Positions 26,390 to 43,102 of a DNA stretch of 64,000 nucleotides are shown piece after piece; positions within the stretch are counted from its first letter, which is position 1, and each line of letters begins with the position of its first letter. The notes beneath the pieces were generated by a model. It made no database searches, was not told the DNA's origin, and worked only from the letters and a program-made list of their open reading frames with translations. The stretch lies in assembly GCA_025998755.1 (NCBI GenBank), contig AP024674.1:1850162-1914161 (forward strand). The letters are read 5' to 3'. Source of the DNA: Armatimonadota bacterium (GTDB taxonomy: Bacteria; Armatimonadota; UBA5829; DSUL01). The translations under genes were made by a program, and so were the position numbers.

Positions 26390-27457
26390 TTGGACCTTTC
26401 TGATCTCAGGCGGCAGATAGACGAACTGGACGCGCAGTTGCTGGAACTGCTGAACCGGCGCGCGGAGCTTGCCATCGAGATCGGCAAGCGCAAGACCGAG
26501 AGCGCAAGCGTCAGCATATTTGCGCCGGAGCGCGAGCGCCTCGTGCTGGACCGCTTGGTGGAGAGGAACAATGGTCCCCTCTCCAACGAGAGCATCAAGA
26601 GCATCTACCGCGAGATCATCTCCTCCATGCGCGCCCTGGAGAAGCCGCTGACCGTGGTCTACTGGGGACCGCCTGCCACCAACACGCACCTGGCCAGTAT
26701 CCGCAAGTTCGGGTCCTCTACCACCTTCGTCCCGGCCGACACCATCGCCGACGTCTTCGAGGAGGTGCAGAAAGGCCACGCGGATTTCGGCGTTGTGCCG
26801 ATCGAGAACTCCATCGAGGGGATCGTGACGCACAGCCTGGACATGTTTCTGAAGTCGGATCTGAAGATCTGCGCCGAGGTCTACCTGCCCATCTGCCACT
26901 GCCTGCTTTCAAAGGCCGAAGACCTTTCGCAGGTGAAGAAGCTCTATTCCATCCCGGTTGCCACCGCGCAGTGTCGCCAGTGGCTGACCACGCACCTGAA
27001 GGACGTGGAGATCGTGGACGCATCCACCACGGCCAAGGCGGCCATCCTGGCGGCAAACGATCCTCCTAGCGGCGCCATCGCGGGAGAGTTGGCAGCGCAG
27101 GTCTACGGCCTGAACATCCTGGCGGACCACATCGAAGACAATCCCGGCAACCGGACCCGGTTCCTGGCGGTGGGCTATCTGGAACCCGGTCCGAGCGGAC
27201 GGGACAAGACCAGCATCGTGTTCTCCGTGCCGCACAGGGCGGGGTCGCTCTACAAGGCGCTGGAGGTCTTCTTCGAGCTGGACATCAACCTTACACTCAT
27301 CGAGAGCCGCCCCACCAAGCTGCTCCCTTGGGAATACGTCTTCTACGTGGACGCGCAGGGGCACCAGAAAGAAGAGAAGATGACCCGGGCAGTGCAGATG
27401 CTGAAGGAGAGGGCCAGCTTTCTCTCGGTGCTGGGCAGCTACCCGGAAGCGGACTGA
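26390..27457 (+). CDS. pheA: Bifunctional chorismate mutase / prephenate dehydratase (P-protein)
   Basis: About 355 residues. No ATG or GTG fits; the TTG at 26390 follows GAGGCGG at good spacing and lies just before the first conserved helix. Residues 1-85 are an AroQ chorismate mutase (LRRQIDELDAQLLELLNRRA...EIGKRK). Residues about 90-270 are prephenate dehydratase, with YWGPPATNTHLAS, FGVVPIENSIEGIV and the catalytic TRF motif in NRTRFLAVG. Residues about 280-350 are an ACT regulatory domain with the ESRP motif that binds phenylalanine. It turns chorismate into phenylpyruvate in the cytoplasm. The 3' end overlaps the convergent CBS-protein gene by 19 bp. Confidence 0.95.
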   Translation: MDLSDLRRQIDELDAQLLELLNRRAELAIEIGKRKTESASVSIFAPERERLVLDRLVERNNGPLSNESIKSIYREIISSMRALEKPLTVVYWGPPATNTHLASIRKFGSSTTFVPADTIADVFEEVQKGHADFGVVPIENSIEGIVTHSLDMFLKSDLKICAEVYLPICHCLLSKAEDLSQVKKLYSIPVATAQCRQWLTTHLKDVEIVDASTTAKAAILAANDPPSGAIAGELAAQVYGLNILADHIEDNPGNRTRFLAVGYLEPGPSGRDKTSIVFSVPHRAGSLYKALEVFFELDINLTLIESRPTKLLPWEYVFYVDAQGHQKEEKMTRAVQMLKERASFLSVLGSYPEAD

Positions 27458-28818
27458 CCGGCTGAGGCGCTCTGCTCGTCCTTCCCGTCTTCCCCCGAAG
27501 CGGGAGGTTCTCCGTCTTCTCTGAGCGGCTCGATGCGGATCTTGCGCAGGCGGCGGCCTTCTTTCTCCTGGACGGTCATCCGCCAGCCACTGAACTCCAC
27601 GCTGTCGCCCACTTCAGGCTCTTTGCCCAGCGTCCCGAACACGAACCCGCCGATGGTCTCGAACTCGTCTTCGGGCAGGCGAGCGTCCAGCTGCTCGTTC
27701 AAGTCGTCTATATTCAGACGGGCATCCACCACCCAGGCATCCTCGTCCTGAATGGTGATGAGCGGCTCCTCGTGGTCGTACTCATCGCGGATCTCCCCGA
27801 CGATCTCCTCTATGAGGTCCTCCACCGTGACCAACCCGGCAGTCCCCCCGTATTCGTCCCGCACGATGGCCATCTGCCGGTTGTTGGAGCGGAACTCCGC
27901 CAGGAGCTCGCTGACCTTCTTGTTTTCCGGCACGAAGAACGCCGGGCGCACAATGTCACGCAGGCTTGCCTCGCGTTTCTCCGGGGATGCCAGGATGGGT
28001 AACAGATCCTTGGCGTGGATGATGCCGATGATGGTGTCCACATTGCCGTCAATGACGGGAAGGCGGGAATGTCCGCTTTCCATAATGACGGAGACCGCTT
28101 CGAGGACGGGGGTATCGGCGTCCACCACCTTCATGTCGATCCGCGGCACCATCACTTGGCGGACGACGGTGTCCGTAAACTCGAAGATGGAGTCGATCAT
28201 CTCTTTCTCGTCCTCTTCGATGACGCCTTCCTCTTCCCCGGCCTCCACCAGCACCATAAGTTCTTCTTCCGTGAGGGCAGGCCAGGAGAGGCGGACCTTT
28301 GCACCGAAGGGAGCGAGCAACGCGCCTGCAACGACCGCGACCAGGCGCACAGCGGGCTTCATCAGCCGGGAGACAAGAGCCGAAACGCCGATGGTCTTCA
28401 GAGCGATGCGCTCGGACTGGTGGGCGGCAATGCTGCGGCTGAACGACTCCGCCACCAGGATGAAAAGAATACCTGTCACCGTCACGGCGATCAGGATGCC
28501 CAGCGCCTCCGCGTTGGCGCTGATCAGGTCATAAGCCGAGCGCTCCAGAAGCCTCCCCAGCCAGCGGCCGGGACCGGCCGCGCTCGTGGCCGCAGCCAGA
28601 AGCCAGAGGAGAAGTCCCAGAGTATGGGCGGCGGCCGCCGCCAGCGAGGGATCCTCCAGCAGGGCCATCGCCCTTCGGGAAAGGCGCCCGTTCTGCTCGC
28701 CCAGCTCCCGGATACGGGAGCGGCGCACCGACACCAGGGCAGTCCCGACTGCTCCGAAGAAGGCTCCCGCCAGGACCAGCCCGAAGAACAGAGCCAGATT
28801 ACTTAGCCAGTCGTCCAC
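27439..28818 (-). CDS. CNNM/HlyC-CorC family membrane protein (DUF21, CBS pair, CorC_HlyC domain)
   Basis: A 459-residue protein; the GTG at 28818 has only a weak GGTGGGA upstream. Residues 1-190 are a DUF21 transmembrane region with four hydrophobic segments. LTEEELMVLVEAGEEEGVIEE and MIDSIFEFTDTVVRQVMVPR lead into the CBS-domain pair (VSVIMESGHSRLPVIDGN; VSELLAEFRSNNRQMAIVRDEYGG). The C-terminal CorC_HlyC (FAD-binding-like) domain is at about 350-425 (FETIGGFVFGTLGKEPEVGD). Relatives are implicated in divalent-cation (Mg2+/Co2+) efflux; older annotations call them hemolysins. It marks the left chromosomal flank of the accessory island. Confidence 0.92.
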   Translation of the reverse strand: MDDWLSNLALFFGLVLAGAFFGAVGTALVSVRRSRIRELGEQNGRLSRRAMALLEDPSLAAAAAHTLGLLLWLLAAATSAAGPGRWLGRLLERSAYDLISANAEALGILIAVTVTGILFILVAESFSRSIAAHQSERIALKTIGVSALVSRLMKPAVRLVAVVAGALLAPFGAKVRLSWPALTEEELMVLVEAGEEEGVIEEDEKEMIDSIFEFTDTVVRQVMVPRIDMKVVDADTPVLEAVSVIMESGHSRLPVIDGNVDTIIGIIHAKDLLPILASPEKREASLRDIVRPAFFVPENKKVSELLAEFRSNNRQMAIVRDEYGGTAGLVTVEDLIEEIVGEIRDEYDHEEPLITIQDEDAWVVDARLNIDDLNEQLDARLPEDEFETIGGFVFGTLGKEPEVGDSVEFSGWRMTVQEKEGRRLRKIRIEPLREDGEPPASGEDGKDEQSASAGQSASG

Positions 28819-28949
28819 TTTTGAGTCCCACCCGGCGAAACTGCCTCAGCAGCCGCCCTCCGGGGGCAGAGATGCGGGGACGCATAATGTATCGGCAGCA
28901 ATATGCGTTAGAAAAAGCGGGCCGAGAAGGGTTTTCGGCGCTGATGGGC

Positions 28950-29330
28950 CGTAGTCCTGCTTGCGCACCGGGCACAACGCCGACAGTGATTCGAGTCTGG
29001 AAGCGATAGTTGCATCTACTGAGGACATAGTTTCCATCGTCGTCCTCTGTTATCCAAAACGGCGGAGCCCCGTCTCGAAGTCCCCTCAAGGCTCTCGTCT
29101 TTGACGCGGCCTTTGCAAACTCGGAGATGTTCTCGCTTTCCATCTCCGCTACAGCCAGCAGCACAGGCCTCACCATCCTGCCCGATGGGGTCGTAGTGTC
29201 TATCTTCACCTTTATGCAGTGGATGGCGCAGCCCGCTTCCTCGAAGAGGACCAACAGCTCGAGGCCTTCTCTTGCATTGCGGGCAAGTCTGCTGAGTTTG
29301 AAGGCCTGCAATACTATAAAATGGAAAGAG
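28950..29330 (-). pseudogene. Fragment of a serine recombinase (resolvase domain), truncated at both ends
   Basis: Translating this stretch gives FIVLQAFKLSRLARNAREG, VKIDTTTPSGRM, LLAVAEMESENISEFAK and LRGLRDGAPPFWI. These match the second half of the catalytic resolvase domain (the KLDRLARN, D-ST-GR and LAELERE blocks). The first roughly 60 residues with the catalytic serine are absent, and so is everything after the link to the recombinase domain. The downstream end runs into the start of the CBS-protein gene. It is a mobile-element remnant, oriented opposite to the larger remnant to its right. Confidence 0.65.
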
Positions 29331-29407
29331 GTGCGAACGCCAATAGGTTACATATTACCCGACAACGGCGATAATGGGGAAGCGAAGGTCCCCAACACTG
29401 GGCTGGG

Positions 29408-30950
29408 GTAGCGATCTACCCCCGCAAGTCCAACAAGGGCGAGGGAAGCAAGAACAAGAGCAAAGTAGAGCAGACAGATTACTGCTTCACCGTCGCCGAC
29501 TAGTATCGGTTCTCTCGGGAGCATGCTACGCTCTTTGACGAGCCCGAGGGCCAGAAGAGAGAGTGGTATTGGCAGGACCCCGAGGGCAGGAACCCCGGCC
29601 CCTACAGGCCCGCCTTCACTCGACTTATGGCCGACATCGCCGCCGGCAAAATCCAGGTTGGCATCTGCCGGCGCTCGGACAGGCTGGTTCGCGACAGCGA
29701 CGTGGGCGACGCATTAGCCAAGTTTTTCAGGAAACACGACGTCCGGCTCAACTGCGCGGGCAGGGACATTGCCATCGACACTTCCCCAGGCCTTTACCAG
29801 TTCAGTGTGGAAGCGGCCAACAATCGCAGGTGGGGGATCAGATATCTGAAAACATCATACGCGACAAGCAGCTCAAGATGTCCATGGGCATGTTTGTCCG
29901 GCACCCTTCTTGTCTTGGTATTCGCTCCAGAGGCAAAGGGACTCAGGCAGTGGATCTGGTTGTGGAAGAGATCGAGTTGGTCAACAGGATATTCAGGATG
30001 TTTGCGACCGGAGAGAACGGCGCTGGCCCGATGGGCATCAACGCGATTGCCAACAGGCTGACGGACGAGGGCATCAGCCTCGCGGTCGGCGCCAAGGGCC
30101 ACAAGCCGAAACACCCCGAGAAGATCCACACATCGCAGATAATGACCATACTCAGGAATTGCGAATACATCGGCAAGTTTCGATACAAGAAGCACGAATA
30201 TGATTGCCCGGCTCTGCGTTTTCCTGCCCGGGACGGTAGCGGGAAGCTGGAGACAGCGGTGCCCGTAACATTATATGAAGTGGCTCAGGAAAAGCTGAGG
30301 CTCAACAACAGGCCGGGCAGCAAGTCGGCCTGTAGCGAGCACCTGTTGGCCGGGACAGTGGTCTGCGCCTAATGCGGCAGGCCGCTGCACGTTCACCGTG
30401 AACGCAGGAGTAGAAACAGCGACGGCAGCGAGCGCGCCGTCAGCAAGTACTACGTCGTCGGCCGCCGAGATACTGCAAGCCATTCGGGATGCGGATGCTC
30501 CAGGAAGACGTTCTTGACCAGTGGGTTCTCAATGAGCTCTGCCCATTGCTTGCGAAAGAGATTCGGGATGCTCAGTAGTCGGCCGCCAGGAATGCCGATG
30601 CCCAAACCCTTGCCGAGCTTGAGCGCAGGATTCACGAGCTTACTAGCAGGAAGTCGAAGACCCTGACCGAAATGGTTGGTGTGATGGACCCGGACCAGAT
30701 AGGGCATGTCGCGTCATCTCTCAAGGCGGAGAGAGATACTTTCCAGCGCAAGGCTGAGGAGATTCGGGCCAGGCCCGACAGGCATTCGGAACTGCCGGAT
30801 CTTTCACCCGAGGCGCTAGCGCAGATGCCGGGGTCGGCGATAAAGGACGCCCCTGCAAGAGCGGTGCAGGGGATCGCAACTGAAAGAGAGGGCATCATCG
30901 TTCTGACAAGCTTCGGCACCTATATCGGGGCCAGAATCTGCTCCATCCCA
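29408..30950 (+). pseudogene. Decayed large serine recombinase with stops and frameshifts
   Basis: Coding sequence of a large serine recombinase can be followed across several frames. AIYPRKSNKGEG is the N-terminal strand with the catalytic Ser. VGICRRSDRLVRDSD is the resolvase core. EIELVNRIFRMFATGENG to GINAIANRLTDEGI is the recombinase domain, followed by TILRNCEYIGKFRYKK. A zinc-ribbon start is seen at VCA-stop-CGRPL, and a coiled coil near SSLKAERDTFQRKAEEI. In-frame TAG codons are at 29501 and 30576 and a TAA at 30370; frame changes occur near 29,830 and 30,500. The gene is inactive. It is probably the former integrase of the neighbouring island, or a later insertion. Confidence 0.8.
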
Positions 30951-31167
30951 AAAGGAACGTTCTTCTCGGCCCAGACAAAGACAACCGTCGCGCCGCAGAC
31001 GCCGGAGGCCGCGGCCAGTTGTCTGAGTTGGCTGCCTTCGCCCGAGGGTGAATGTCGAAGATCCGGGCTGAATGGGCGTTGTATAACCCCATTGATTGGC
31101 CAGCCGCCGCTTCGGGCGCACTTGCCTGCAAGACATTGGGGGATCGCAAGCAAGTCGGCCGGAGCAC

Positions 31168-32397
31168 TCAGAGCACATCGACAAAGTCGATCTCGCCTGA
31201 ATCCTCCTGACCTGGAGGTTCGGGGACCGTCTGAGCACTATCTCTCCCGCGCTGTATGACGAGGTCGCCCGCCTGCTCCGAGCTGCAGATTCGCTTGAGA
31301 GCGTGCATTTCCTGTCCGGCAACTCCGCTTAGATAGACCCAGTTCGTCGCCCGCGTTATGCCGACGAACACCATTCGCTGGCTGATATCCTTGCGAAACT
31401 CATCAAAGGAACCCTCCACAAGGCGCGGCATCAGAACGGTGTCGAACGTAAGGCCCTTGACCCCGTGGTAGGTCAGCACCTTCGGCAGATCCGTGTCGAA
31501 GTCTACGTTTTTGCTCGTCTGAGCCTCCACCTCGATTCCGGCTGTTCGCAACGCCTTGGCAACGCCTGCCACCTGGCGATTGTGCGGGAGGACTACGGCC
31601 ACGGTCTCGCCCATGAGGACGCGAGTGCGCAGAACGGCGATCAGACGCTCCATTTCGTCATCGAAATCCTTGGCAAGATAAACGAGCGGCTTCTCGCCGG
31701 AGGTCTGTGGAATTCGGTTCTGCTTGAGATAGGCGGCCCTGTCCTCGGCATCATCTATCAGTTCGGCAGCCACGCTTGCGACATACGGACAACACCGAAA
31801 CGCTGCTAGCAGCGACATATTTCGCCGTTTCAAGCCCAGCGCGCCGAGAATCCTGTCTTCGTCCGTGCCGTGATCATATATCTGCTGCTTGTGATCCATG
31901 CACGCCGTCACATGCCCCGCGATTGACGTGAGCACCCTGAAAACATCGGAGTCCAGGTCCTGTGCTTCGTCCACCAGGACGAAGTCGTACATTGGTTCGC
32001 CTTTGGGCCGCGACCCTACAGCTTCCAGCACTGCCTTCCGAATGGCGATGAAGTCCGGGCATTTTTCCTCCGCATTCCAAGGCAATCTGCCTCCGATACG
32101 TCTGCGGTGGTAGTTCAAGCACCATCTGTCAAACGTGCTGACGCATTTGTCAGGGATTCCGAGCAATTCAAGGCCCGAAGAGATGTACTCCTTGAGCACG
32201 TTGTTGAAAACGAAGATGCGGAAGTTGTCAGGCCCGCAGCCAAGTTTATCACAGAGGTATCGGGCGCGGTGAACCAGGACCTGGGTCTTGCCCGACCCGG
32301 GGGGGCCAAAGACCAACCGGTGTTCGCCCATATCGAGTTCTACGGCCCGCAGCTGATCAACGGTCAGTTCCTCCCGCGGCACGAGCCACGTGCTCAT
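31168..32397 (-). CDS. Compact UvrD/Rep-like superfamily 1 helicase, last gene of the defence operon
   Basis: A 409-residue protein whose ATG overlaps the Hsp70 stop (ATGA), so it is translationally coupled. SF1 motifs in order: a Q-like LTVDQLRAVE, Walker A GPPGSGKT near residue 31, Walker B LVDEAQDLD near 138, motif III-like MDHKQQIYD, motif IV LLAAFRCCPYV, motif V LTYHGVKGLTFDTV and motif VI VFVGITRATNWVYLSG. It is much shorter than UvrD, Rep or PcrA because the 1B and 2B insertions are missing, leaving a minimal motor. It lies at the end of the methylase/PLD-SNF2/Hsp70 train, which suggests a DNA-translocation or nucleic-acid-remodelling role in that system. Confidence 0.9.
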   Translation of the reverse strand: MSTWLVPREELTVDQLRAVELDMGEHRLVFGPPGSGKTQVLVHRARYLCDKLGCGPDNFRIFVFNNVLKEYISSGLELLGIPDKCVSTFDRWCLNYHRRRIGGRLPWNAEEKCPDFIAIRKAVLEAVGSRPKGEPMYDFVLVDEAQDLDSDVFRVLTSIAGHVTACMDHKQQIYDHGTDEDRILGALGLKRRNMSLLAAFRCCPYVASVAAELIDDAEDRAAYLKQNRIPQTSGEKPLVYLAKDFDDEMERLIAVLRTRVLMGETVAVVLPHNRQVAGVAKALRTAGIEVEAQTSKNVDFDTDLPKVLTYHGVKGLTFDTVLMPRLVEGSFDEFRKDISQRMVFVGITRATNWVYLSGVAGQEMHALKRICSSEQAGDLVIQRGRDSAQTVPEPPGQEDSGEIDFVDVL

Positions 32398-34781
32398 TCG
32401 TCACCTCGGGGCGAGAGTGTAGGCAGCAATCCTTCTGGGGGCAGCGGCGTCCCGCCTCTCTTTCGGCGTTTCCTCTGCTCGGCCTTTGCCTCTTCGACCA
32501 GTTCGGAGTCGCCAGCAGCCTGCGCCGCGGTCAAGAACCAACGCAGTGCCCAGTCATCAAGGAACTCTGGCTTGCCAAAGGCGTCCAAGGCTTCGCGCAG
32601 GTAGCTCGCTCTTGCCTCAGCATCATTAACGTCTCCGGCAAGGAGTCCGCGGAGAGCAACGTACGCCCCATCTCTCTTGCGATCCATCGCCAGTTCCACC
32701 GACTCAATCGCTTCCTCGTAGCGTTTCTGCTGCCTATACATCAGGGCCAGGCTGAACAGAGGGCTTCCCCAGCCCGATGCCTCGGCCGCCTTTCTATATA
32801 GTTTTTCTGCACGCTCGTAATCCTGCATTTCGGCATAGATGATTCCCATTAGATAGAGAATCCCCGCGTCGGCGTAGTTCAGCCTCTGCAGGGCGCTCCG
32901 CAGGCATGCCAGTGCTCTCTCTCGGTGGGCAAGCTTCCAGTACTCCTCGGCGAGCTCTTTCAGAAGCCAGGGCATTTCATCCTCGGCCACTTCCTTGTGG
33001 CGAATCCGCCGCTCGATCTCGTTGATCCGCGTTCGTGTGCTGTGTGGGTTGACCACGTGCGTCAGCGGGTTCTGAACGTCGGCGACAAGCACGGGAACCG
33101 ACCCGTCTGCCAAACCCATCACTATCTTGAGTACCTGGTTCTCGTCGTAGTAGTACTCGAGGAATATCCGGGCCCCGGATTTCTCCGCAGTGTCCAGAGG
33201 CCACGTGTAGAATGCCACCGTTCTGTTCTCTCGGCCGGCGACGATTTCGAGCCTGATTTTGTCTTCGTCTTCCCCTTCCCCCGCCAATACCATCAGGCTA
33301 TCGTTGAGTGCGTACTTGTCCCTTTGCGGATACGGCAGTTCCGCGCCTTTCGGAACGAGCTCCAACAGCCCGCCTTGGTGTCGAACGCAAAGTGAGTCGT
33401 GCGCAACCGGTCTGAAAAAGCCTGAACCGGTCAGCGCGAGTGCCATCGCGTGAAATGCCGCGCCACGCGCTACCGCAAGCTGAACGGCATCTCGATCCGG
33501 CGGTTCAAGGATCTCTGCTTCTGGCAGGAACTCCCTGATTCCGTCAACAACCTGCGGAATCAGGCTGCTGCCACCGACCATCAAGCAGTAGTCCACGTCC
33601 TCCGGATCCAGGTCGCTTCGCGATAGCGCATCGGCGACCGGCAAGAATATCGGGCAGGTCGTGTAGTATTCCCCTTCATTGACACATGGAACATCGTGGT
33701 CTAGGAACGGCTCCAGGACCTGGTTGAACTGGCTCAGCGACATTGCCGGGCTTTCCAGCACATAATCATTTTCTTGTATCGGACATTTGAAGACTCCCGG
33801 GAGTTTGGCCGTGAGATCCTTCGCATCCCTGCCGAACTTGCGCAGCCGCTCCAACTCGATGCACAGTTTGATCTTCAGAGATTCTGCTACTCCCATCAGC
33901 GCGGGTTCAACGTAGAGCCGCTTTTCGTCAAACGTGAGATCGTGCGGCCCAATGCCGTTTTGCTGGATAAGCTGCGGAATCAGCACGTCGTGAACGATCG
34001 ACGCATCAATGTCTCCGCCGCCGAGCCTGTGATACCGCGACACAGAGAGAGCCGCGATTTCCAGCCGCGACTTCTTCTTTCCGCGGCTCACGCGGAACAC
34101 GGCGACATCACATGTTCCGCCGCCGAAGTCGAAGACTAGCAGCACTTTTGGCTTCGCGAACATCTCAGCCACGTTGCTGCCCTGTGTACAGGCGTAGTCG
34201 AGGAACGCCGCCATCGGCTCGTCCAGCAGCCCTCCCGCGTCAACGTCGAGCCCCGCGAGTTTGGCCGCCTTGAGAGTGTCATACCGCTGAGCGGCCTGGA
34301 ACGAAGCAGGCACGGTCACGACCACTCTCTCCGGCGCGGTGTCCAGGGCTTCAAGCGCTTTGGAGTGAAGGAACGAGAGCACCTTTCCCCCTATCTCCGC
34401 AGCGTTCTGGTAGCCGACGGGCGCCCCGAGATACGGCTTGTCTGTCCCGATGTCGTTCTTGCACTGAGAGAACACATGCCTGTTCGGGATTAGTTTCAGA
34501 AACCCCGATTGGGCCAGAAGCCTCTTTGCGCCCTCGCCGACCCATTCCCGGCCGTCGTGAAGCACCACGACAGACGGAACGAGAGGGCTAATATACTCTC
34601 CTTCAGCAGTCACCTGCGGGATGTCCAGGCAGTGAACCTTCACAGACTGAGTCTCCGGGTCGTAGACCGCCTCCGCAACCGTGGAGTTGGTCGTGCCCAG
34701 ATCTATGCCAAGGGCTCGGACCGGCCCGGCCGGCTGAGGGAAGTCCCCAACGCTTTCTTTGATGATCGACATGAAGTCCAT
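32394..34781 (-). CDS. Hsp70-family ATPase fused to a C-terminal TPR region
   Basis: About 795 residues from the ATG at 34781 (AAAGGA upstream at long spacing). Residues about 13-400 form an Hsp70/actin-fold ATPase: phosphate-1 GIDLGTTNS, VTVPASFQAAQR, phosphate-2 DFGGGTCDVAVF and adenosine-binding VGGSSLIPQVV. There is then a beta-rich part that does not look like a canonical DnaK substrate lid (TVAFYTWPLDTAEKSG). From about residue 590, TPR-like helices follow (RALACLRSALQRL, YLMGIIYAEMQDYERAEKLY, FSLALMYRQQKRYEEAIES), then a basic tail KAEQRKRRKRGG. It is not housekeeping DnaK: it is TPR-fused, has no EEVD-like end and sits between two helicases. A chaperone or assembly role for the defence proteins is inference. 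Confidence 0.9.
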   Translation of the reverse strand: MDFMSIIKESVGDFPQPAGPVRALGIDLGTTNSTVAEAVYDPETQSVKVHCLDIPQVTAEGEYISPLVPSVVVLHDGREWVGEGAKRLLAQSGFLKLIPNRHVFSQCKNDIGTDKPYLGAPVGYQNAAEIGGKVLSFLHSKALEALDTAPERVVVTVPASFQAAQRYDTLKAAKLAGLDVDAGGLLDEPMAAFLDYACTQGSNVAEMFAKPKVLLVFDFGGGTCDVAVFRVSRGKKKSRLEIAALSVSRYHRLGGGDIDASIVHDVLIPQLIQQNGIGPHDLTFDEKRLYVEPALMGVAESLKIKLCIELERLRKFGRDAKDLTAKLPGVFKCPIQENDYVLESPAMSLSQFNQVLEPFLDHDVPCVNEGEYYTTCPIFLPVADALSRSDLDPEDVDYCLMVGGSSLIPQVVDGIREFLPEAEILEPPDRDAVQLAVARGAAFHAMALALTGSGFFRPVAHDSLCVRHQGGLLELVPKGAELPYPQRDKYALNDSLMVLAGEGEDEDKIRLEIVAGRENRTVAFYTWPLDTAEKSGARIFLEYYYDENQVLKIVMGLADGSVPVLVADVQNPLTHVVNPHSTRTRINEIERRIRHKEVAEDEMPWLLKELAEEYWKLAHRERALACLRSALQRLNYADAGILYLMGIIYAEMQDYERAEKLYRKAAEASGWGSPLFSLALMYRQQKRYEEAIESVELAMDRKRDGAYVALRGLLAGDVNDAEARASYLREALDAFGKPEFLDDWALRWFLTAAQAAGDSELVEEAKAEQRKRRKRGGTPLPPEGLLPTLSPRGDE

Positions 34782-34859
34782 TGGCTCACTTGTCCTTTCG
34801 AAGATACCTTCCGGCAATCTCAGGTTCGCCCAACCAACCTTGCACCACCAATGGCAACA

Positions 34860-37800
34860 TTACACCAGGCCCTCGGAACACACGATTCTTGATACCGGTT
34901 TCTCCTGGAGCATGGATGAGCGGCGGTCGGCCCATTCCCGCATATTGTGCTGGTAGTAGATGTCACGGAGCCCGTGCAGAAGGTCTTGTCCTGTAGCGCC
35001 GTTCCGCCGGAGTCTGTTGAGCTCTTTATTGACCGCATTTGTGACCGGCCCTCTGAACGCCTTTGCCAGTAAGTCGATCTGAGACTTGATCTCTTCGTCC
35101 CGCGCCAGCGCGAACTGACCACGAAGCTCCCTGAGCACATACTTCTGCCCCTGTGATAACCCCAGGGTCTTTTCCCGTTCGGCCTGCCGTTGCTTGACTA
35201 CTTCTGCAAACTGCCTCTTGGCGCGCGCCACACGAGAGTTGTAACCCTCCGGCAATGTAGCCGTCGGCGTTTCAGGAGCGCACTTTATCATGCCCAGGAC
35301 GCGCGGCACATCGCGAGTCACCTCGTTGCCCTCGCTGTCGAACACTACCAGTTCCTGATAGGCTTTTAGATCGCTTCGGCCCGGATAGCTGCTCTCGCAG
35401 AAGACGTAGAACCCCTTGGCGAGAGCCTGCACAGCAGACCTTACGCCGTCGGGCATCGAGGCGATCCTCTCAAATTCCGCAGGGCTCTCTTTCTTCAGCA
35501 GCCGCACGATTTCTTCCGCTTCGTTGAGGTCAAGCAACTCATCTTCCTCATCCTCGAACAGGCTGAGTTGTTCGCCCTTCCTCTCGTAGATTGCGTACAG
35601 AGCCTCCTCGTTGAGCTGTTCAGAGGAATCCAGAATCGCTGCGTCTTCCCCTATGGTGTCGTGTATCTCCTGAATTCGGTTCCGAAGCACCTCTTTGAGC
35701 CCCAGATTGCGCTCAATTCCCAGTTCAGGCAGGAAGTTGAACCCGTAGATGACATCGTGTTCGCTGCCTATGCGGTCTATTCGCCCGAACCGCTGAATCA
35801 GCCGGACCGGGTTCCAGTGGAGGTCATAGTTGATGATCTTATCGCAGTCCTGCAGGTTGAGGCCTTCCGAGAGCACGTCCGTAGCCACGAGGGTGGATAT
35901 CTCACACTCTCCTTCCTGGAACTTGTAGCTCGGGTTGGCTCTGGGGGCGAACCTTCCCACGGCGCGCGCTCTGCTCTTGTCTGAGCTGTAGACCACCTCA
36001 ATGTCGTCCCGCTCTTCTTTGGGGTTCAGGTTTTCATAAAGGTACTTGGCCGTGTCGGCGAATTGGGTGAAGATCAGAAGCTTGCCCTGATTGAGGGGTT
36101 CCTTGCGAAGCCAGTCAAACAGAGTCTGCAGCTTGGCGTCCTTTGCAGCGGTGATCGGTTCGACCAATCCGAGGATATGCTTTAGGACCGATATATCGTG
36201 CTCAATTGCCTTTCTTAAGCGCGACAAGTCGAAGTCTTCGATGTTGTAGTGCCCGCTCGCTTGCCGGAGCGCGTCCATTAGACCCACCTCCGACTGCACA
36301 TCTGACTCGTACAAGATGTTTCTGGCATCCTCACCGGCAGGCACTATTCCTTCTTGGAGAGCTGCGAGGAATCTTTCGTGCGCCCTCAACAGGCGTTGGA
36401 TGGTTGCTCGAAACGCGTACACGCTGGACTCGAAGCGTTTGAACAGCAGGATGCGAATGAGGCCGCGCAGGTTCGCGCCGGCGCGCTGCAAGCTTGCATA
36501 AGGCTCCTGGCGCTGCTTCTCGGGACGAACGTAATGCCACAACCCGAACCTGGCAAAAGTGAGTTGGCCTTTGAACAGCCTCCCTGCGCCGTTATTGCCC
36601 GGCCGGCCGAGAGCGCTCCTGATCTCCTGATACAGCCCCTGGTAGGTGTCCTCTATACTATATTCTATGGTCTCAAGCTCGCGCTTGGGGAAGAACTGGT
36701 GCTTGCCGCCAACGATCACGTAGGCGCGCCTCCTGCCGGACGCATAGTCAGCGAAGCGCGACGGATCCACCGGCTCGTGAGTGTCCGCATCATATCCATA
36801 CCATCGCAGAATATGGTTGCGGGTCCGCCGGATCAGAATATGAACCAGCAGGTCGGGCAGCTTTCGGTTCCCTCGCTCGATGGACTTGAAATATTCCTTG
36901 AGGTCCGCGGGTTCGATTGGCAGGTCGGTCTTGTCGCTCTGGTGGAACAGCTTGATCTGATGATAGACATCCCAGGCGGTCTTGTTTCGCGGAGTGGCCG
37001 TGAGCATGCAGCACTTCTTCTGCGTTGCCAAAAAGGCCTCCACGGCTCTGTAGCGCTGCGTTTCCGGGTTGCTGAGGTTGTGGCTCTCGTCAATCAGCAC
37101 AAAGTCGCGGTCACGATACAATCCATCGTTGGGGTCCAGGTACTTCTCCACGTCCTTGCCTTCGCTGAGATACCCCATGGACAGTACGCGCGCGTTGAGG
37201 TCATACTCCTCATTGTAGCGCTCCCACATCTCCACCAGCCCGGCCGGGCAGATAATCAGCGGCCGCGCATGCTCAGTCCGCTCGAAGTGCTTCACGATGG
37301 CCGCGCCGATGTAGCTCTTGCCCAATCCCACAACGTCGGAGACGAACACGCCACCGTAGTCGCGGATCATCTGCACAGCCTGCTTCACCGCAACCTTCTG
37401 AAAATCCGCCAACTTGGATGTGATATCGTCATCCCACAGCAGGTCCTGATCGGCCTCGGATTCCAGGCGGTCCCGCACCAGCCGGTATAACGTCTTCATA
37501 TAGATGTCGTAGGGACGGACCAGCGATGCGGCCCAGGACTGTTTGATCTCCTGCATAAAGGCCTCGTCGAACTCTTCGGACTCATTCCAGAGCTCGTCGA
37601 ACCATCTCACAAGCTCAGCGTGGTTGTCGTTGCCCTGGACCACGACGTTCAGCTCCGTGTTGTGCGTAAGCCCGGACAGCGTAAGGTTGGACGATCCGAC
37701 TATCGCTATCCCCTTCTCGTGCCGCTCGATTGGCTGGCCCGAGGCGTCGTATACAGGCCCGTAGTCGAAGATATAGGCTTTGGCGTGCAGCCTGCCCTTG

Positions 37801-38219
37801 GTGTAGACCCGGACCTTGAGCCTGCCCTCCTCGATCATCCGCGCCAGGTTCAGGATGACTCTCTCATCCTCGTCGGATTGGTCCATCATCTCCATCGCCT
37901 CGCGGATGGCTTCGGCGGTCTCGCTCACCATGCGCTTCGAATCCACCCTCTTCGGGTAGCTCTGCGCCTCCGCTGCTTCCTTGACCATCTCCAGCGACCG
38001 ATAGCCCTCGGCTAGCTGCTCCAGGGTCTCTCGGTTGGTGGTGTTGCCGATCAGCAGCCGGAGTTCCGACAGGTCCACTAGCTTCGAGGCAATTCCCTTA
38101 AGACCGGATATGAAGAAGTAACCCACAGCAAACCGCGCAGCGCTCGTGGAATCGAGTATCCGGTCTATGTGATCGGCAAGTATCTCCTTGCGGTTGTCTA
38201 TAATGTCGTGAGCGGCCAA
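34860..38219 (-). CDS. PLD-nuclease-SNF2 helicase fusion protein
   Basis: A 1119-residue protein starting at a TTG (38219) with AAGGAG upstream, 12 bp after the HEPN remnant. Residues about 10-230 are a phospholipase-D-type domain with one HxK motif, GRLHAKAYIFDYG (His near 143), and GSSNLTLSGL, giving a single HKD half-site that would need dimerisation. Residues about 275-470 are the first SNF2 lobe: DVVGLGKSYIGAAI (motif I), LIDESHNLSN (DExH-type motif II) and LTATPRNK (motif III). The second lobe runs about 690-860: LLIFTQFADTAKYL, ATDVLSEGLNLQDCD (motif V) and QRFGRIDRIGS (motif VI). The last 250 residues are helical with no assigned family. Likely an ATP-driven DNA translocase with nuclease, the candidate restriction component. 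Confidence 0.93.
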   Translation of the reverse strand: MAAHDIIDNRKEILADHIDRILDSTSAARFAVGYFFISGLKGIASKLVDLSELRLLIGNTTNRETLEQLAEGYRSLEMVKEAAEAQSYPKRVDSKRMVSETAEAIREAMEMMDQSDEDERVILNLARMIEEGRLKVRVYTKGRLHAKAYIFDYGPVYDASGQPIERHEKGIAIVGSSNLTLSGLTHNTELNVVVQGNDNHAELVRWFDELWNESEEFDEAFMQEIKQSWAASLVRPYDIYMKTLYRLVRDRLESEADQDLLWDDDITSKLADFQKVAVKQAVQMIRDYGGVFVSDVVGLGKSYIGAAIVKHFERTEHARPLIICPAGLVEMWERYNEEYDLNARVLSMGYLSEGKDVEKYLDPNDGLYRDRDFVLIDESHNLSNPETQRYRAVEAFLATQKKCCMLTATPRNKTAWDVYHQIKLFHQSDKTDLPIEPADLKEYFKSIERGNRKLPDLLVHILIRRTRNHILRWYGYDADTHEPVDPSRFADYASGRRRAYVIVGGKHQFFPKRELETIEYSIEDTYQGLYQEIRSALGRPGNNGAGRLFKGQLTFARFGLWHYVRPEKQRQEPYASLQRAGANLRGLIRILLFKRFESSVYAFRATIQRLLRAHERFLAALQEGIVPAGEDARNILYESDVQSEVGLMDALRQASGHYNIEDFDLSRLRKAIEHDISVLKHILGLVEPITAAKDAKLQTLFDWLRKEPLNQGKLLIFTQFADTAKYLYENLNPKEERDDIEVVYSSDKSRARAVGRFAPRANPSYKFQEGECEISTLVATDVLSEGLNLQDCDKIINYDLHWNPVRLIQRFGRIDRIGSEHDVIYGFNFLPELGIERNLGLKEVLRNRIQEIHDTIGEDAAILDSSEQLNEEALYAIYERKGEQLSLFEDEEDELLDLNEAEEIVRLLKKESPAEFERIASMPDGVRSAVQALAKGFYVFCESSYPGRSDLKAYQELVVFDSEGNEVTRDVPRVLGMIKCAPETPTATLPEGYNSRVARAKRQFAEVVKQRQAEREKTLGLSQGQKYVLRELRGQFALARDEEIKSQIDLLAKAFRGPVTNAVNKELNRLRRNGATGQDLLHGLRDIYYQHNMREWADRRSSMLQEKPVSRIVCSEGLV

Positions 38220-38231
38220 TAGATGCTCCTT

Positions 38232-38672
38232 TCAGACGTACTCAGGATGGTTGGCCTAAAGCCATCCGCGAACTGCCTCATCCAGCTCCTGAGCCTTGGC
38301 AATCAGTTCCGTCACCTTGGCCCTGGATACGATGCCCGACCTGGAGTAGGTCGAAAAGTTTCGGATTCGCCTGCACTTCTGCACTTACGTGCTCAAAGCC
38401 TGGTGTTCCACGCCCAGGATCTTGGGGAGAACCCCAAATACGGCGAGATGGTGCCCTTCTCCACGTGTTCGATATCCGGCGCATCTGAGCGGGATAGTCG
38501 CAAGCAGCAGCGCCGCGTCCTAGGCGCAGTTGAAGCGTCCATCCAGCGATAGCTGGTCCGCCTGCGCATCGCCGAGGCTCGTGGAGGCAACGCTCATCAG
38601 GTCGGCAATCTCGCGCCTGGAGGTCCTTCTCGGTTTCAGCCTTCCCTCATTCGGCGAGCCTTCTAAGCTCAT
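38232..38672 (-). pseudogene. HEPN-domain protein gene with three in-frame stop codons
   Basis: A single frame of 147 codons runs from an ATG at 38672 to a TGA at 38232-38234, and its translation is a convincing HEPN-type helical protein: NEGRLKPRRTSRREIADL, FNCA-stop-DAALLLA, GYRTRGEGHHLAVFGVLPK, CRRIRNFSTY, AQELDEAVRGWL-stop-ANHPEYV. TAG at codon 51 replaces the usual Tyr of the (A)YDAA helix; TAA at codon 96 probably replaces a Tyr; TAG is at codon 139. The start overlaps the MNT gene by 26 bp, as in HEPN-MNT toxin-antitoxin pairs. HEPN partners are usually RNases or nucleotidyltransferase targets. As it stands the gene cannot give a full product. Confidence 0.8.
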
Positions 38673-39254
38673 CATCGCCTCCGATCAGGAAGAGCTTGGT
38701 CTCCCGCATCACTGAAGTTACGAAGTGATCCCCGTTTTTCAGCCGTTCCCGGAACTCAACCGCTGGAAACACTGCTGGATTCACTTCCCTGCCAAGCTCA
38801 CTCTCAGCCGTGTCGAGCGCCTGCGATAGCTCAACTAGCGATACGTCGCCGACGACAGAAAGGTCCACATCGCTTTCAGAACGCTCCTCGCCTCTTGCGC
38901 CGAGCCGAAGATGAACGCGACCTTCATTTGCTCCGAGAGCTCAGCCAGGCAAGCTCTGAGCACATCGGCAAGGCCGACTGACTTGACAAACATGGACCGC
39001 AGATCGGGAACTATGAGGCATCGCTCGTTGATTCCTAAGTAGAATTGGCGGCCGCAGCGCTCTCGCAAGATCACGCCCGCCGTTTCAAGATTCCCAAGCT
39101 TCCGCTGGACGCTTCCCTGACGTAGTCCGGTCTTCTTGACCAGCTCGCGCAGATAGAACCTGCCTTCGCCGCCAAACAGCAGGACTTTGAGAAGCTATAT
39201 GCGGGGGCAGGATTGGATTATTGTCTCCAGCATTACGCCCTCCACCGTAGGCAT
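38647..39254 (-). pseudogene. HTH-MNT nucleotidyltransferase gene with an amber stop and a 1-nt frameshift
   Basis: The ATG at 39254 opens a frame interrupted at codon 20 by TAG (39195-39197). It continues as LLKVLLFGGEGRFYLRELVKK, TGLRQGSVQRKLGNLETAGV, an HTH of the type fused to MNT domains. The nucleotidyltransferase core is FGSA, then after a one-base loss near 38,896 RGEERSESDVDLSVVGDVS, restoring the GSxxRGEExxxSDxD motif. The total of 608 nt is one short of 203 codons, consistent with one deletion. The downstream frame ends at 38647, overlapping HEPN. Intact relatives act as antitoxins (AMP transfer to HEPN) and repressors. A palindromic operator lies just upstream. Confidence 0.8.
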
Positions 39255-39264
39255 AATGAATGCA

Positions 39265-39292
39265 AGTGTACGCATTTTGCGTACTGTGTCGA
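39265..39292 (-). promoter_or_regulatory. Promoter with a perfect 17-bp palindromic operator between -35 and -10
   Basis: On the minus strand TCGACA (39292-39287), a 16-bp spacer and TACACT (39270-39265) stand just before the MNT start. The palindrome GTACGCA-AAA-TGCGTAC (39284-39268) fills the spacer and touches the -10. This is the standard position for a repressor of the MNT-HEPN-helicase part of the operon. The HTH of the MNT protein would be its natural reader, but that gene is broken. Confidence 0.6.
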
Positions 39293-39350
39293 GCACCTAT
39301 TGCTCTTCCTCCTCACCTGCGTTTGGGTCAAAAGGTCCAAGCTGCCGAAA

Positions 39351-42300
39351 TCACACGCTTTCAGCCTTTGACAGGCGCTTTGTAACCAGCTCGACCACGG
39401 CTTCGTACACAGCGTCCCGCTCGCACTGGGTTAGCCCAATTGCGTCGAACAGGACATTATCTAGGGCGCGTCGGTCGTCGTTAACCATCTCTTTGTTTAT
39501 AGACATTAATGGACGCCGAGCTACCACGGTGAATGCCTCCTGCAAAGCCTCGCGTTCCCGGCTCGCCAAACACCGAGGCGACAAGATGATTTGGTTCTGC
39601 ACCTCGTACACCATGACGCTCCGTGGGCCGCCTCCCCCCCCATAATTCCTCGCGCCAACTTCATCGCACAATATGGACAGGGCAGAGTTCAATAATGCCT
39701 GCATCACCGGATCCGTAATGGAAACATAGAACCTGCAGTCCGCAATCAACAGTTCGGCAGAGCCGAACACTCCGATACGGTCGCGCAGTTCCTTTGCCCA
39801 AAATGTATTCCCAGGTGTCTCCCTGCACTCCCACCACCGCCGCCGCCCTGCACAACTCGGACCCTTGTGAAACCCTTGCGTCTCCCCCCAACGAATGTAT
39901 TCCAGAGCTCTTGTTCCGGCGAGTTCACGCTTTTCCAGGTGACACACGAACAGGCACTGTCCTAAATCCCGAGGGCTGACCTCAAGGCTGCGGCACTCCC
40001 TCGGGCTCTTGATCACTGGCTTCAGGAACTCTTCCTCGATGCCCCACTGCCTGATCTTCTCCTCGTCCAGGTAGAAAAACTCATTGCACCCCGTCTTGAT
40101 TCCGAAGCGCACTTCGGCGATGTCTCCAAGCCGCACAAGCTTGCCCTTGCCCTTCTCCAGAATAGTCCAGTAGATATCCGGAGCCCGCAGATACTTGCCG
40201 CCCCACTTGTCCCCGACGTATCTCGGCACTTTTACCAGCGGGAAGCGCCTGTCTGGTGCCGCGTTGGCCGGCTCGTCTTCCTCGTCCTCAGCGGGCTGGT
40301 CGAACCCTCTTTCCAGAAGCTCTTTCTGCTTGACCACCTGCACCCTGTATTCCGGGGTGGACCGACGCCCCTCGGCTTCCTCGATCTCCTCGAACACCAC
40401 CGCCGACAACACCTGCTCGAACGGCACCTTGAACATCACGAACCGCGCGATGTTCGAAAGCCCCGCGTCCTTTTTTTTCGACGGCGCGGAGAGCAAACAG
40501 ATAACCGAGTTCACGTCCGCACTGGCGAACGATCGCTTCACCTGGTTGTCCATCACGAGCTTCAGATGACACTGCCTCAGCAGGAACTCCTGAAGGTCGG
40601 CCCCGTATCCCACGTCAAGCCACGAGTTGGACGTGATGAAGACAAACGATCCCGTAGGGTTCAGAATGTGCAGCCCGCGGAAGTAGAAGTATATGTACAG
40701 GTCGCTCTTGGCATCAATTTTCCTGACGGCCTTTCCGGTTCCGCACTTATACTGGAAGAAATCGGGATGATCGCGCTGAGTAGTGAGCATGACCTTTTCT
40801 TTGTAGCGGCGTTTGTTCTCGGCAGTCACTTCGTCGCGCGGCAGCCGAGGGTCGGATATCTGCTCCTGTCTCACGTAAGGCGGATTGCCCACCACGATAT
40901 CGAACCCCGACCTGTTGCCACGGAACACCTCGGCAAAGGCTATGCTCCACACGAACGGAAGGCCGCTCATGCGCGCCAACTCCTTCTGAGCGGCGAGCAG
41001 ATTGTTGATCTCCGCCTGCTTTTGCTCGCGTTCCTTCTTCCATCTCTCTGATTCTGCGAGCGTCTCCTGCTGGGGCTTGTCGAACCCGCCTATGAGCGGC
41101 GGGACCTGCTTGGGCTCATTCCCGATGGCGGCGAGTTCCCGCTGCGCGGCGATGATGCGCTCTTCGAGAATATCGTGGAACAGGCTTCGCTCGGCCTGCT
41201 GCGCGTCCTGGACGCTATGGAACTCGCAGTCGCAATCGCCGTAATAGAACTTGGCTTTCTCGGCGGTGAGTTTGGTGATGCGTTGCTTCATGGAGCGCGA
41301 GAGCGTGGATTCGGTCAGGTGCGCCAGTCCAATCCCGCCGACCTCCTCGACAAGGCTGTCCCCGCACCGAATGTTGAAAGTAAAGTTGGGCAGCAGGGGC
41401 TCGTGGCGAAAGGCCAGTTCCTCTCTGGTGAACTGCGCGTCTATAATGAGCGCCAGCCAGAGACGGAGCTCAGCTACGTGGCAAGCCCATTCCATGACGT
41501 CCACGCCGTATAAGTTCTGGCCGATGATCCGCTTGCGGCGCTCGTATGAATCTTCGGCTATGCCCAATGCCGTTTGAGCGCGCTCTTGAACGTCGTCCAT
41601 TATGTGCAGCATCCCGACCAGGAAAGAGCCCGACCCGCACGCGGGATCCACAATCTTGGTCTCCTGAAGTTCTTTGAGGATCGTGTTCCAAAGTCCAGCG
41701 GCGGAGACTTGGCCGTCCGCGTCCTTCTTCTCGTCGGGCTCCAAGGCGAATATGAGCTCGTAAAGCAGCTTGCGGTGCTGTTGGCCGATTCTGCCGGATA
41801 GGTTGTCCACCAGCGCTAGCCGGCACATCAGGTCTATCTCGGTTCGGGGCGTGTAGAAGATTCCCGCGTCCCCGCGCTCGTCAGCTTCCTCGGAGACATT
41901 GACCAGGCTCTCGTAGACCTTTCCAATCATCTCCGGATCAACGGAGACTTCCTGGTCCAGCGGGCTGTCCTCGGCGATGGTGAAGTTGTAGTTGTCCAGA
42001 AACTCGATGACCCGCTCCAACCGCGAGTCGCATATGGTGAAGGGGTCGCCCGGGGCGTCGAGTCTGTTCTCGGCAAACAGGCCTCCGTTCAGGTATGGCG
42101 CGTCGCACAGAGCCTTGCGAAAATGCTCGGGTATGTGCCGCCTCTGAGGAGTGTTAAGCAGAGACTTCTTGTTGTTGAAGGCCTCGAAGAACAGCGGCTT
42201 GAGCCACTTCTCGAAGAAGGTATCCTTGGGCTGTCCGCTGCCGGCATATGCATCGAAGTAGGACCTGATGAACTCCGTATCGTCCCCAAGCCAGCGTTTG

Positions 42301-42986
42301 CGCTGCACGAAGTAGAGGAACATGAGCCGGTTGAGGAGGCTGAGGGCATAGTCGTGCGCCCAGGTCCGGTCCGGTATCTGAGCCTGCAGGTCTTCCTGGA
42401 GAAGATTGAACACCGTCTTGTAGTCGTCGAAGAACTGCTTGGTTACAGCCTCGACGTTGAATGCCTCATCGTGCTTCTGCTGAATGTCCAGCGCGGACAG
42501 GTCGTGGAGCGCCGGGCTCATCGAAGCGACATCGAGCAGGGAGATGCGCTCGCAGGCGGTTCTCAGCCGTTCGTTCGGGCCGACGCTGATCCTCCGGAAT
42601 ATGCGGCGCTTGGTGGCATCGGGATCGTTCCGAACGTTGACGAAGTGCCAGTTCTCTTGCCCGGCGTCGGAGAAGACGAATAAACTGTAGAGATGGTCGT
42701 TGAGGAGCCGGTTGATCAGCACGCGCTCGTCGGAGATGTGCAGCTTGCCCTCGGAGTGGAGACGGCAGTAGAGGACGTGAAAATCGCCGTCCTGGCCGGC
42801 CGTCGCGAAGAGAAGGGGATCATCCGCAAGGGCGGTGCGCTCGGTGTCGGTCCATGACCCGGTTGGGATAGCCTGGTTTGCTCTCTCGTAGTTGAGCTCG
42901 CGCCAGAAGAGCTCTTTCAGGGGGTCGATGCCCTTGAGGGCGGTCAGCAGGTCAAGAACTGTCTGCCTGTTATCGTGTACGGCCAC
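39351..42986 (-). CDS. Eco57I-like N6-adenine DNA methyltransferase, large multidomain
   Basis: A 1211-residue protein from a GTG at 42986 (only AGG nine bases upstream). Residues 1-330 form a helical N-terminal part of the type found in giant Eco57I/PglX-like methylases (LYSLFVFSDAGQENWHFVN; FRRISVGPNERLRTACERI). I see no PD-(D/E)xK nuclease in it. The methylase core has SAM motif I DPACGSGSFLVGM near residue 445, GVDVMEWACHVAELRLWLAL and the catalytic VGNPPYVRQEQ near 699, followed by a coiled coil before it (KQAEINNLLAAQKEL). The C-terminal 350 residues look like a TaqI-C/S-type target-recognition domain (VRLGDIAEVRFGIKTGCNEFFYL). It probably marks host DNA so the PLD-SNF2 protein can tell it from foreign DNA. 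Confidence 0.92.
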   Translation of the reverse strand: MAVHDNRQTVLDLLTALKGIDPLKELFWRELNYERANQAIPTGSWTDTERTALADDPLLFATAGQDGDFHVLYCRLHSEGKLHISDERVLINRLLNDHLYSLFVFSDAGQENWHFVNVRNDPDATKRRIFRRISVGPNERLRTACERISLLDVASMSPALHDLSALDIQQKHDEAFNVEAVTKQFFDDYKTVFNLLQEDLQAQIPDRTWAHDYALSLLNRLMFLYFVQRKRWLGDDTEFIRSYFDAYAGSGQPKDTFFEKWLKPLFFEAFNNKKSLLNTPQRRHIPEHFRKALCDAPYLNGGLFAENRLDAPGDPFTICDSRLERVIEFLDNYNFTIAEDSPLDQEVSVDPEMIGKVYESLVNVSEEADERGDAGIFYTPRTEIDLMCRLALVDNLSGRIGQQHRKLLYELIFALEPDEKKDADGQVSAAGLWNTILKELQETKIVDPACGSGSFLVGMLHIMDDVQERAQTALGIAEDSYERRKRIIGQNLYGVDVMEWACHVAELRLWLALIIDAQFTREELAFRHEPLLPNFTFNIRCGDSLVEEVGGIGLAHLTESTLSRSMKQRITKLTAEKAKFYYGDCDCEFHSVQDAQQAERSLFHDILEERIIAAQRELAAIGNEPKQVPPLIGGFDKPQQETLAESERWKKEREQKQAEINNLLAAQKELARMSGLPFVWSIAFAEVFRGNRSGFDIVVGNPPYVRQEQISDPRLPRDEVTAENKRRYKEKVMLTTQRDHPDFFQYKCGTGKAVRKIDAKSDLYIYFYFRGLHILNPTGSFVFITSNSWLDVGYGADLQEFLLRQCHLKLVMDNQVKRSFASADVNSVICLLSAPSKKKDAGLSNIARFVMFKVPFEQVLSAVVFEEIEEAEGRRSTPEYRVQVVKQKELLERGFDQPAEDEEDEPANAAPDRRFPLVKVPRYVGDKWGGKYLRAPDIYWTILEKGKGKLVRLGDIAEVRFGIKTGCNEFFYLDEEKIRQWGIEEEFLKPVIKSPRECRSLEVSPRDLGQCLFVCHLEKRELAGTRALEYIRWGETQGFHKGPSCAGRRRWWECRETPGNTFWAKELRDRIGVFGSAELLIADCRFYVSITDPVMQALLNSALSILCDEVGARNYGGGGGPRSVMVYEVQNQIILSPRCLASREREALQEAFTVVARRPLMSINKEMVNDDRRALDNVLFDAIGLTQCERDAVYEAVVELVTKRLSKAESV

Positions 42987-42998
42987 TCGATCAAGCCT

Positions 42999-43010
42999 GT
43001 TGCTAGCAAC
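42999..43010. promoter_or_regulatory. Perfect 12-bp palindrome before the methylase start
   Basis: GTTGCTAGCAAC is self-complementary and lies 12 bp upstream of the methylase GTG, inside the leader. It could be an operator or a methylase/controller site. No reader is known. Confidence 0.35.
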
Positions 43011-43073
43011 CGCTGAAGCTGTTCACTTCCCCATTGAAACTGAAAGGGATTAGTGGCGCGTGGGCATTACTGG

Positions 43074-43102
43074 ATGTTAGCGTGATTGCGCCGAACAGTC
43101 AA
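43074..43102 (-). promoter_or_regulatory. Sigma-70 promoter of the methylase/defence operon
   Basis: TTGACT (43102-43097), a 17-bp spacer and TAACAT (43079-43074). The predicted leader is about 80 nt to the GTG at 42986. Confidence 0.75.

Follow-up and report, generated by a model that had tools for sequence, protein, structure and literature searches.

A 64,000-nucleotide stretch of DNA from an Armatimonadota bacterium (assembly GCA_025998755.1, contig AP024674.1, positions 1,850,162 to 1,914,161; hereafter the window) carries on its minus strand two overlapping genes, one encoding an Hsp70 protein with tetratricopeptide repeats (Hsp70-TPR; 32394-34781, 795 amino acids, aa), the other a minimal UvrD-like motor of helicase superfamily 1 (SF1; 31168-32397, 409 aa). 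The two genes, which encode proteins with intact catalytic residues, are inherited together and have passed from phylum to phylum, and they are found preferentially next to defence systems of unrelated kinds. The explanation we favour, with a confidence about midway between doubt and conviction, is that the pair is a mobile accessory of antiviral defence, a module of two genes; this reading is drawn from the genes and their neighbours.

Conservation of the Hsp70-TPR and SF1 gene pair

The Hsp70 frame ends GAC GAA TGA, its stop codon occupying 32396-32394, and the SF1 gene begins ATG AGC at 32397; the two share the ATGA at 32394-32397, in a junction that reads GACGAATGAGC with GAGGTG just 5' of the SF1 start. 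The Hsp70 ATG lies at 34781; the mechanically delimited open reading frame (ORF) reaches further, to a TTG at 34817. Rereading the minus strand upheld the coordinates and the overlap given in a first-pass annotation of this DNA, which had taken the overlap to imply a fixed stoichiometry. Overlaps of 4 nt are common in bacteria, so that the overlap alone is no proof of this; what rises above chance is its conservation. A scan of genome contigs, for which the query was the Hsp70 without its N-terminal third, yielded 80 loci in about 13 phyla, 76 of them informative once a broken Hsp70 (L068) and three loci that were too short had been left out. The SF1 gene lies directly downstream of Hsp70-TPR, on the same strand, in 66 of the 76, and the modal spacing is -4 nt (36 of the 58 loci with a resolved start), most of the others being at 25 nt or less. 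In L069 the two genes share a reading frame (Hsp70 TAG CAA ATG SF1), and readthrough of the TAG would give a protein of about 1196 aa.

The converse search gives the same picture. The SF1 gene is present in only 8 of 291 Armatimonadota genomes, and in all eight Hsp70-TPR is directly upstream; Hsp70-TPR itself occurs in 12, the four without SF1 all belonging to one genus. Among Acidobacteriota, Hsp70 is upstream in 9 of the 11 genomes with an SF1 match, the two exceptions being among the weakest matches. The annotation had proposed a search for adjacent homologues, and had named as damaging to its idea of a two-gene module the finding of each gene only apart from the other, or of the pair always in a housekeeping context: the genes are found together, and a fixed chromosomal setting is seen mainly in one clade of Opitutae. 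The two proteins have also diverged together, their distances correlating in a mirror-tree comparison (r 0.77, n = 49 loci; 0 of 2000 permutations as high) and continuing to do so when Opitutae and near copies are removed (0.73). In the Hsp70 tree phyla are interleaved, with well-supported mixed clades such as Fidelibacterota with Pseudomonadota and Elusimicrobiota with Syntrophaceae.

Two outlying arrangements were also seen. A second, partial Hsp70-TPR copy stands near the full one in L057 (717-1172 and 4918-7176) and in L031 (5396-5856), suggesting duplication or repeated insertion. A very distant pair on the Antarctobacter plasmid pSMS3-3 (L012, 14449-19880) consists of an Hsp70 with a long N-terminal extension and an SF1-like ATPase, accompanied by a third gene of 456 aa without a Pfam match.

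Structure and conserved residues of the two proteins

Pfam assigns the larger protein to HSP70 (108 bits), with TPRs at residues 640-703. An AlphaFold2 (AF2) model, made with 65 homologues in the alignment (pLDDT 89.9), was compared using VIA-align with DnaK (7krv_B), 471 residues of which align with residues 21-576 (Z 33.7, 3.1 Å). On the strength of this alignment the nucleotide-binding domain (NBD, 20-453), the linker and the following beta part of the substrate-binding domain (SBD-beta; linker and domain together 457-570, beta in the model) are predicted to be DnaK-like, and only the alpha-helical lid to have been exchanged, for about six TPR helix pairs (581-775). The first-pass annotation, which read full nucleotide-binding motifs and a non-DnaK second half with TPR-like helices, was thus right about the motifs and the TPRs; its second half holds, by the model, a DnaK-like SBD-beta. 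The residues equivalent to DnaK K70, E171, D194, T199 and D201, namely K108, E188, D218, T223 and D225, are invariant in 65 of 65 sequences. An actin-like NBD with its catalytic residues, and SBD-beta after a linker, place the protein in the Hsp70/DnaK superfamily and are what it shares with DnaK and HscA. It differs from them in carrying a TPR array in place of the helical lid, in falling far below their equivalog cut-offs (118 bits against 620, and 108 against 648) and in having no grpE or dnaJ at its locus; the two further Hsp70 genes of the host genome are both of the ordinary DnaK type. Within the last 20 residues a linker is variable, whereas a GxLP motif at about 784-789 is conserved (mean entropy 2.1 bits; 3.5 in its flanks). 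Inspection of the alignment consensus by eye did not make evident the carboxylate-clamp pattern by which TPRs bind EEVD (K-x3-N / N / K-x3-R over three TPRs).

The smaller protein consists of UvrD-helicase and UvrD_C matches in its N- and C-terminal parts (Pfam). Structural comparison of its AF2 model (pLDDT 91.5) by Foldseek and VIA places UvrD first: 373 of the 409 residues align with 2is6_B over UvrD residues 5-649 (Z 36.6), leaving about 270 UvrD residues without counterpart, and hence domains 1B and 2B missing, as the annotation had noticed. Upf1 ranks lower (Z 22.6), a value that rules out nothing as to kinship with UPF1-like helicases of the CnuH type (see below). Motifs I-VI are intact in 1A and 2A, which makes the protein an SF1A UvrD/Rep core, and K37, D143, Q146, R201 and R349 (motifs I, II, IV and VI) are invariant in 61 of 61 sequences. 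It is not UvrD, Rep or PcrA proper, since it lacks 1B and 2B and scores 39-43 bits against equivalog cut-offs of 900-1144; its profile resembles not only PcrA but also HelD (6wvk_H, 6e-23; HelD model, 1e-12).

The SF1 protein ends in a disordered, conserved acidic-hydrophobic tail (...SGEIDFVDVL-COOH; 31171-31215, minus strand; pLDDT below 50 at residues 395-409). All 57 complete homologues have L, F or I as their last residue, and 35 of them have D at position -6. One homologue (L057) ends ...DDYDAPF, resembling the tip of single-stranded DNA-binding protein (SSB), and mimicry of the SSB tail was considered for this reason. The SSBs of host genomes did not support it: those of seven pair-bearing Armatimonadota genomes end ...DPFxDE and their SF1 proteins FVDVL, DELDFL, EISLF and the like, and in Endozoicomonas the SSB ends DDDIPF and SF1 ends GLDDLI. 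The Armatimonadota SSBs (L156-L160, L162, L163) are themselves unusual in not ending ...DDDIPF. Two clades of solo Hsp70s (L055, L056, L064, L072, L053, L091) carry acidic-aromatic C-termini (DEFSF, DYFIW, DFSF, MFDF) reminiscent of the tail on the SF1 protein that they lack; this would fit, without proving, a receptor for the tail on Hsp70 itself.

Defence neighbours and the inserted island

The main clue to function is the company the pair keeps, which escaped the first-pass annotation: defence genes beside it both in the window and, with CRISPR, Hma and Dpd systems among them, elsewhere. Seventy-five random neighbour proteins matched 122 PADLOC families at E≤1e-20 and 75 control proteins matched 4, a count of families that overstates the number of proteins but leaves the contrast large; the controls were drawn at random from two sources, the ybeY loci of relatives and, in Armatimonadota genomes that carry the pair, contigs other than the one bearing it. 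Neighbours verified by hidden Markov model (HMM) include type IIG restriction-methylation enzymes (L023, L030), Zac/PDC-M27-like proteins (L051) and HmaB with HmaC (L100). NERD-UvrD was found by HMM in L029 and, as a homologue, by ORF comparison in L033. CRISPR neighbours verified in the same way include Cas6 with Cas10 of type III (L053), Cas1 with Cas3 of type I-F (L071), Cas9 (L074) and Cas6 (L026); a SIR2 domain (L046), a DNA methylase (L073) and DpdF were verified likewise, and at least eight unrelated defence systems are represented. Some pairs stand alone.

A DUF3800 gene was also seen beside the pair in L023 (7213-8154) and L030 (12972-13931). It may relate to the Cas12a2 loci that contain TPR-DUF3800, UvrD and a further TPR protein (PMC10910872).

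In the window the pair sits at the end of an island of about 14.5 kb (28819-43369), inserted between dgkA (43370-44419) and a corC-like gene (27439-28818); in every one of 12 relatives from the class to which the window belongs, ybeY, dgkA and corC are contiguous and the site is empty. With the pairing, the co-divergence and the mixed phyla of the tree, this insertion bears out the suggestion of a transferable two-gene module. The coordinates in the first-pass annotation left out two large genes upstream on the same strand of the island. One, directly upstream of the pair, encodes a helicase in which a phospholipase D (HKD) domain is joined to SNF2 (PLD-SNF2; 34860-38219, 1119 aa; PADLOC C3a139 HKD+Snf2, 8e-84; Pfam PLDc_2 and Helicase_C), the other a type IIG-like or PglX-like N6-adenine methyltransferase with NPPY and DPACGSG motifs (39351-42986, 1211 aa; Pfam Eco57I, 3e-30; PADLOC REase_MTase_IIG, 5e-53). 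The 1.1 kb or so that separates these two holds, at 38256-39074 (minus), only short overlapping ORFs of 79, 73, 68 and 65 aa, two of them without a Pfam match at 0.01; they read like a broken gene, possibly for a nucleotidyltransferase to judge from the FGS motif in KVAFIFGSAQE.

Relatives of PLD-SNF2, of the methyltransferase or of both adjoin the pair, or a solo Hsp70-TPR, in at least 10 further loci, in varying gene order (blastp neighbours). The window pair might accordingly be an integral part of a DISARM- or ARMADA-like system that needs all four proteins, lone pairs being remnants or derivatives. The set does recur in several phyla, its order varying (L022, L023, L030, L033, L038, L046, L091), and ARMADA type II requires all four of its genes (PMC12458937). 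Most pairs, however, lack both genes nearby, and the 1.1-kb gap in the window is itself awkward for a single system. Moreover, PLD-SNF2 distances do not track those of Hsp70 (r 0.26; 483 of 5000 permutations as high): in L023 and L030 the PLD-SNF2 proteins are 75% identical and the Hsp70s only 52%. The methyltransferases next to the pair are of two kinds, unrelated to each other (about 20% identity). Exchange of neighbours can be glimpsed in L053 and L091, near-identical solo Hsp70-TPR genes without SF1, each preceded by the same two genes, for a WYL regulator and a response-regulator-TPR protein: what follows the Hsp70 is type III CRISPR in the one and PLD-SNF2 with methyltransferase in the other, as at a swap site. 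Since PLD-SNF2 does not co-diverge with Hsp70, it is the pair, by these comparisons, and not the four-gene set that is the inherited module, and its neighbours that are exchanged. An obligate four-gene unit was downgraded after the distance comparison, and we now hold it to be unlikely.

The island also bears signs of the way it arrived. Serine-recombinase-like fragments on both strands at its corC end (28799-30372; ORF reading, and Pfam Recombinase, 3e-8, on 29563-30372) are probably what is left of the element by which it was carried in; when the island was scanned for promoters, terminators and repeats, no signal exceeded that of shuffled sequence or of chance, and attachment repeats were not clearly discernible. 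These fragments would also suit a pair that serves the mobile element itself, in replication, transfer or counter-defence of integrative elements, as would the CobS/DUF3150/CobT genes beside the Endozoicomonas copy, a contig from a viral database and the distant version on the Antarctobacter plasmid. That contig was, however, the only one found, with the Hsp70 alignment as query, scans of viral contigs with Hsp70 or SF1 singly finding none, and tblastn of plasmids with Hsp70 returned mostly DnaK, the Antarctobacter pair being the only one. Around many copies, besides, the neighbours are defence genes of the host type and no genes of an element can be seen, and the pair is fixed in Opitutae; service to the element thus strikes us as distinctly improbable. 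The Endozoicomonas locus (L094, 4622-8443; Endozoicomonas sp. ISHI1, an isolate genome) has genes for a CbbQ-type AAA ATPase, DUF3150 and a CobT-like protein upstream of the pair, and is possibly an integrative element.

Several points weigh against an antiviral role. Defence genes cluster, so that adjacency may be co-residence only; the controls were taken from Armatimonadota alone, and some PADLOC models are generic ones for helicases and methyltransferases. Most loci are contigs of metagenome-assembled genomes, in which misbinning would inflate apparent transfer. In Opitutae, on a long branch with good support, about ten loci (within L080-L093) share a single conserved setting of the pair on the chromosome, which has the look of domestication; a solo Hsp70 of Chthonomonas lies in a housekeeping neighbourhood. 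On account of these last two cases, some copies at the least resemble genes for ordinary functions of the cell. The pair as a whole might, then, serve cellular stress or genome maintenance, Hsp70-TPR remodelling RNA polymerase, the replisome or a repair complex and SF1 clearing DNA in the manner of HelD, with islands as mere carriers. The Opitutae context, solo copies beside groEL or greA-lysS, the likeness of the SF1 profile to HelD and a canonical NBD, presumably active, would all agree with this; it is harder to reconcile with so patchy a distribution among Armatimonadota genomes, with interleaved phyla, an inserted island and a strong enrichment of defence neighbours. We judge it unlikely, though by no means negligible.

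A possible mechanism, and comparison with known systems

As an antiviral module the pair could work as follows. Hsp70-TPR would act as an ATP-driven conformational switch, its SBD-beta/TPR surface binding either a nucleoprotein complex that has stalled or a protein that signals infection, and once switched would recruit, activate or license the SF1 core. Domains 1B and 2B tune unwinding in UvrD and Rep; having lost them, the SF1 core would probably need a partner to act as strand separator or protein stripper. It would dock on Hsp70, probably through its conserved C-terminal tail, the best candidate for such a contact, and by translocating would strip proteins from invader DNA or expose single strands on which a neighbouring nuclease or methyltransferase could act. 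The system served would be PLD-SNF2 with the methyltransferase in the window, and Cas3, Cas9, Cas10, Hma or Dpd elsewhere; a lone pair would hinder the invader unaided. Docking, loading and licensing we infer, and the support for the antiviral role is genomic association. Bolder, and in our view doubtful though worth stating, is the proposal of a new class of defence machine, in which a lid-less, TPR-bearing Hsp70 ATPase would detect infection and either drive a minimal SF1 translocase or load it, the two forming an interchangeable cassette for restriction-modification, CRISPR-Cas, Hma and Dpd across bacteria.

Immunity is seldom a role ascribed to chaperone ATPases. Should the module exist as proposed, it would be a helper cassette shared among systems, and would document an Hsp70 in which another binding module has taken the place of the lid. 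PADLOC 2.0, NCBIfam and Pfam hold no model specific to Hsp70-TPR or to the SF1 motor, and a literature search, which did not extend to subscription papers, found no description of the two together; the pair thus appears undescribed within the libraries searched. We take it to be, most likely, an accessory module that defence islands share, and the prospect that it is of a new kind is a real one.

Its parts have partial counterparts in several known systems. With DISARM class 1 the window shares an SNF2 helicase, an adenine methyltransferase and a PLD domain. DISARM needs DrmA and DrmB; the island has no ORF for either, DrmD/DrmA helicase models (PADLOC) matching PLD-SNF2 only in part, and the PLD domain is here fused to SNF2. 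Gabija GajB and NERD-UvrD (PADLOC C3a187) are likewise defence-linked SF1 helicases, and C3a187 is the best PADLOC match of our SF1 protein (71 bits, helicase part only; the best match of the Hsp70 reaches 16 bits). The motor described here is without the GajA OLD nuclease and without a NERD domain, its usual partner being Hsp70-TPR. HelD, too, combines a UvrD-like core with a protein partner, in its case RNA polymerase, which it enters by arms; it is about 700-775 aa long, and the present core is armless.

ARMADA type II comprises an SNF2 helicase, a PglX-like methyltransferase, YprA and a RelE-UvrD fusion (PMC12458937). The window island similarly unites an SNF2 helicase, a PglX-like methyltransferase and a UvrD-family helicase. 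It contains no YprA-like helicase, its only helicase ORFs being PLD-SNF2 and SF1; ARMADA has YprA and the RelE-UvrD fusion, and no Hsp70. CoCoNuT is a McrBC-type IV restriction system in which the Hsp70-like CnuD, with degenerate nucleotide motifs and HEAT-like repeats, and the UPF1-like CnuH, with insertions, accompany the McrB-like GTPase CnuB (PMC11090510). Both systems join an Hsp70-like NBD/SBD protein bearing helical repeats to an SF1 helicase; set against CnuD as described, the window protein has intact, invariant NBD motifs and TPR repeats, and its helicase partner is a bare UvrD-like core. CnuB is absent, the four large ORFs of the island being those for the methyltransferase, PLD-SNF2, Hsp70 and SF1. 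The Hsp70-like parts of CoCoNuT are predicted to be near-inactive; here an Hsp70 with intact motifs is tied by inheritance to a DNA motor.

A parallel to the manner of inheritance is offered by the nuclease-protease pairs common to Hachiman and AVAST, a co-inherited pair taken up by unrelated immune systems (PMC12799240). The proteins differ, and function was demonstrated experimentally for those pairs; in both cases a pair of genes behaves as an inherited module whose neighbours are exchanged.

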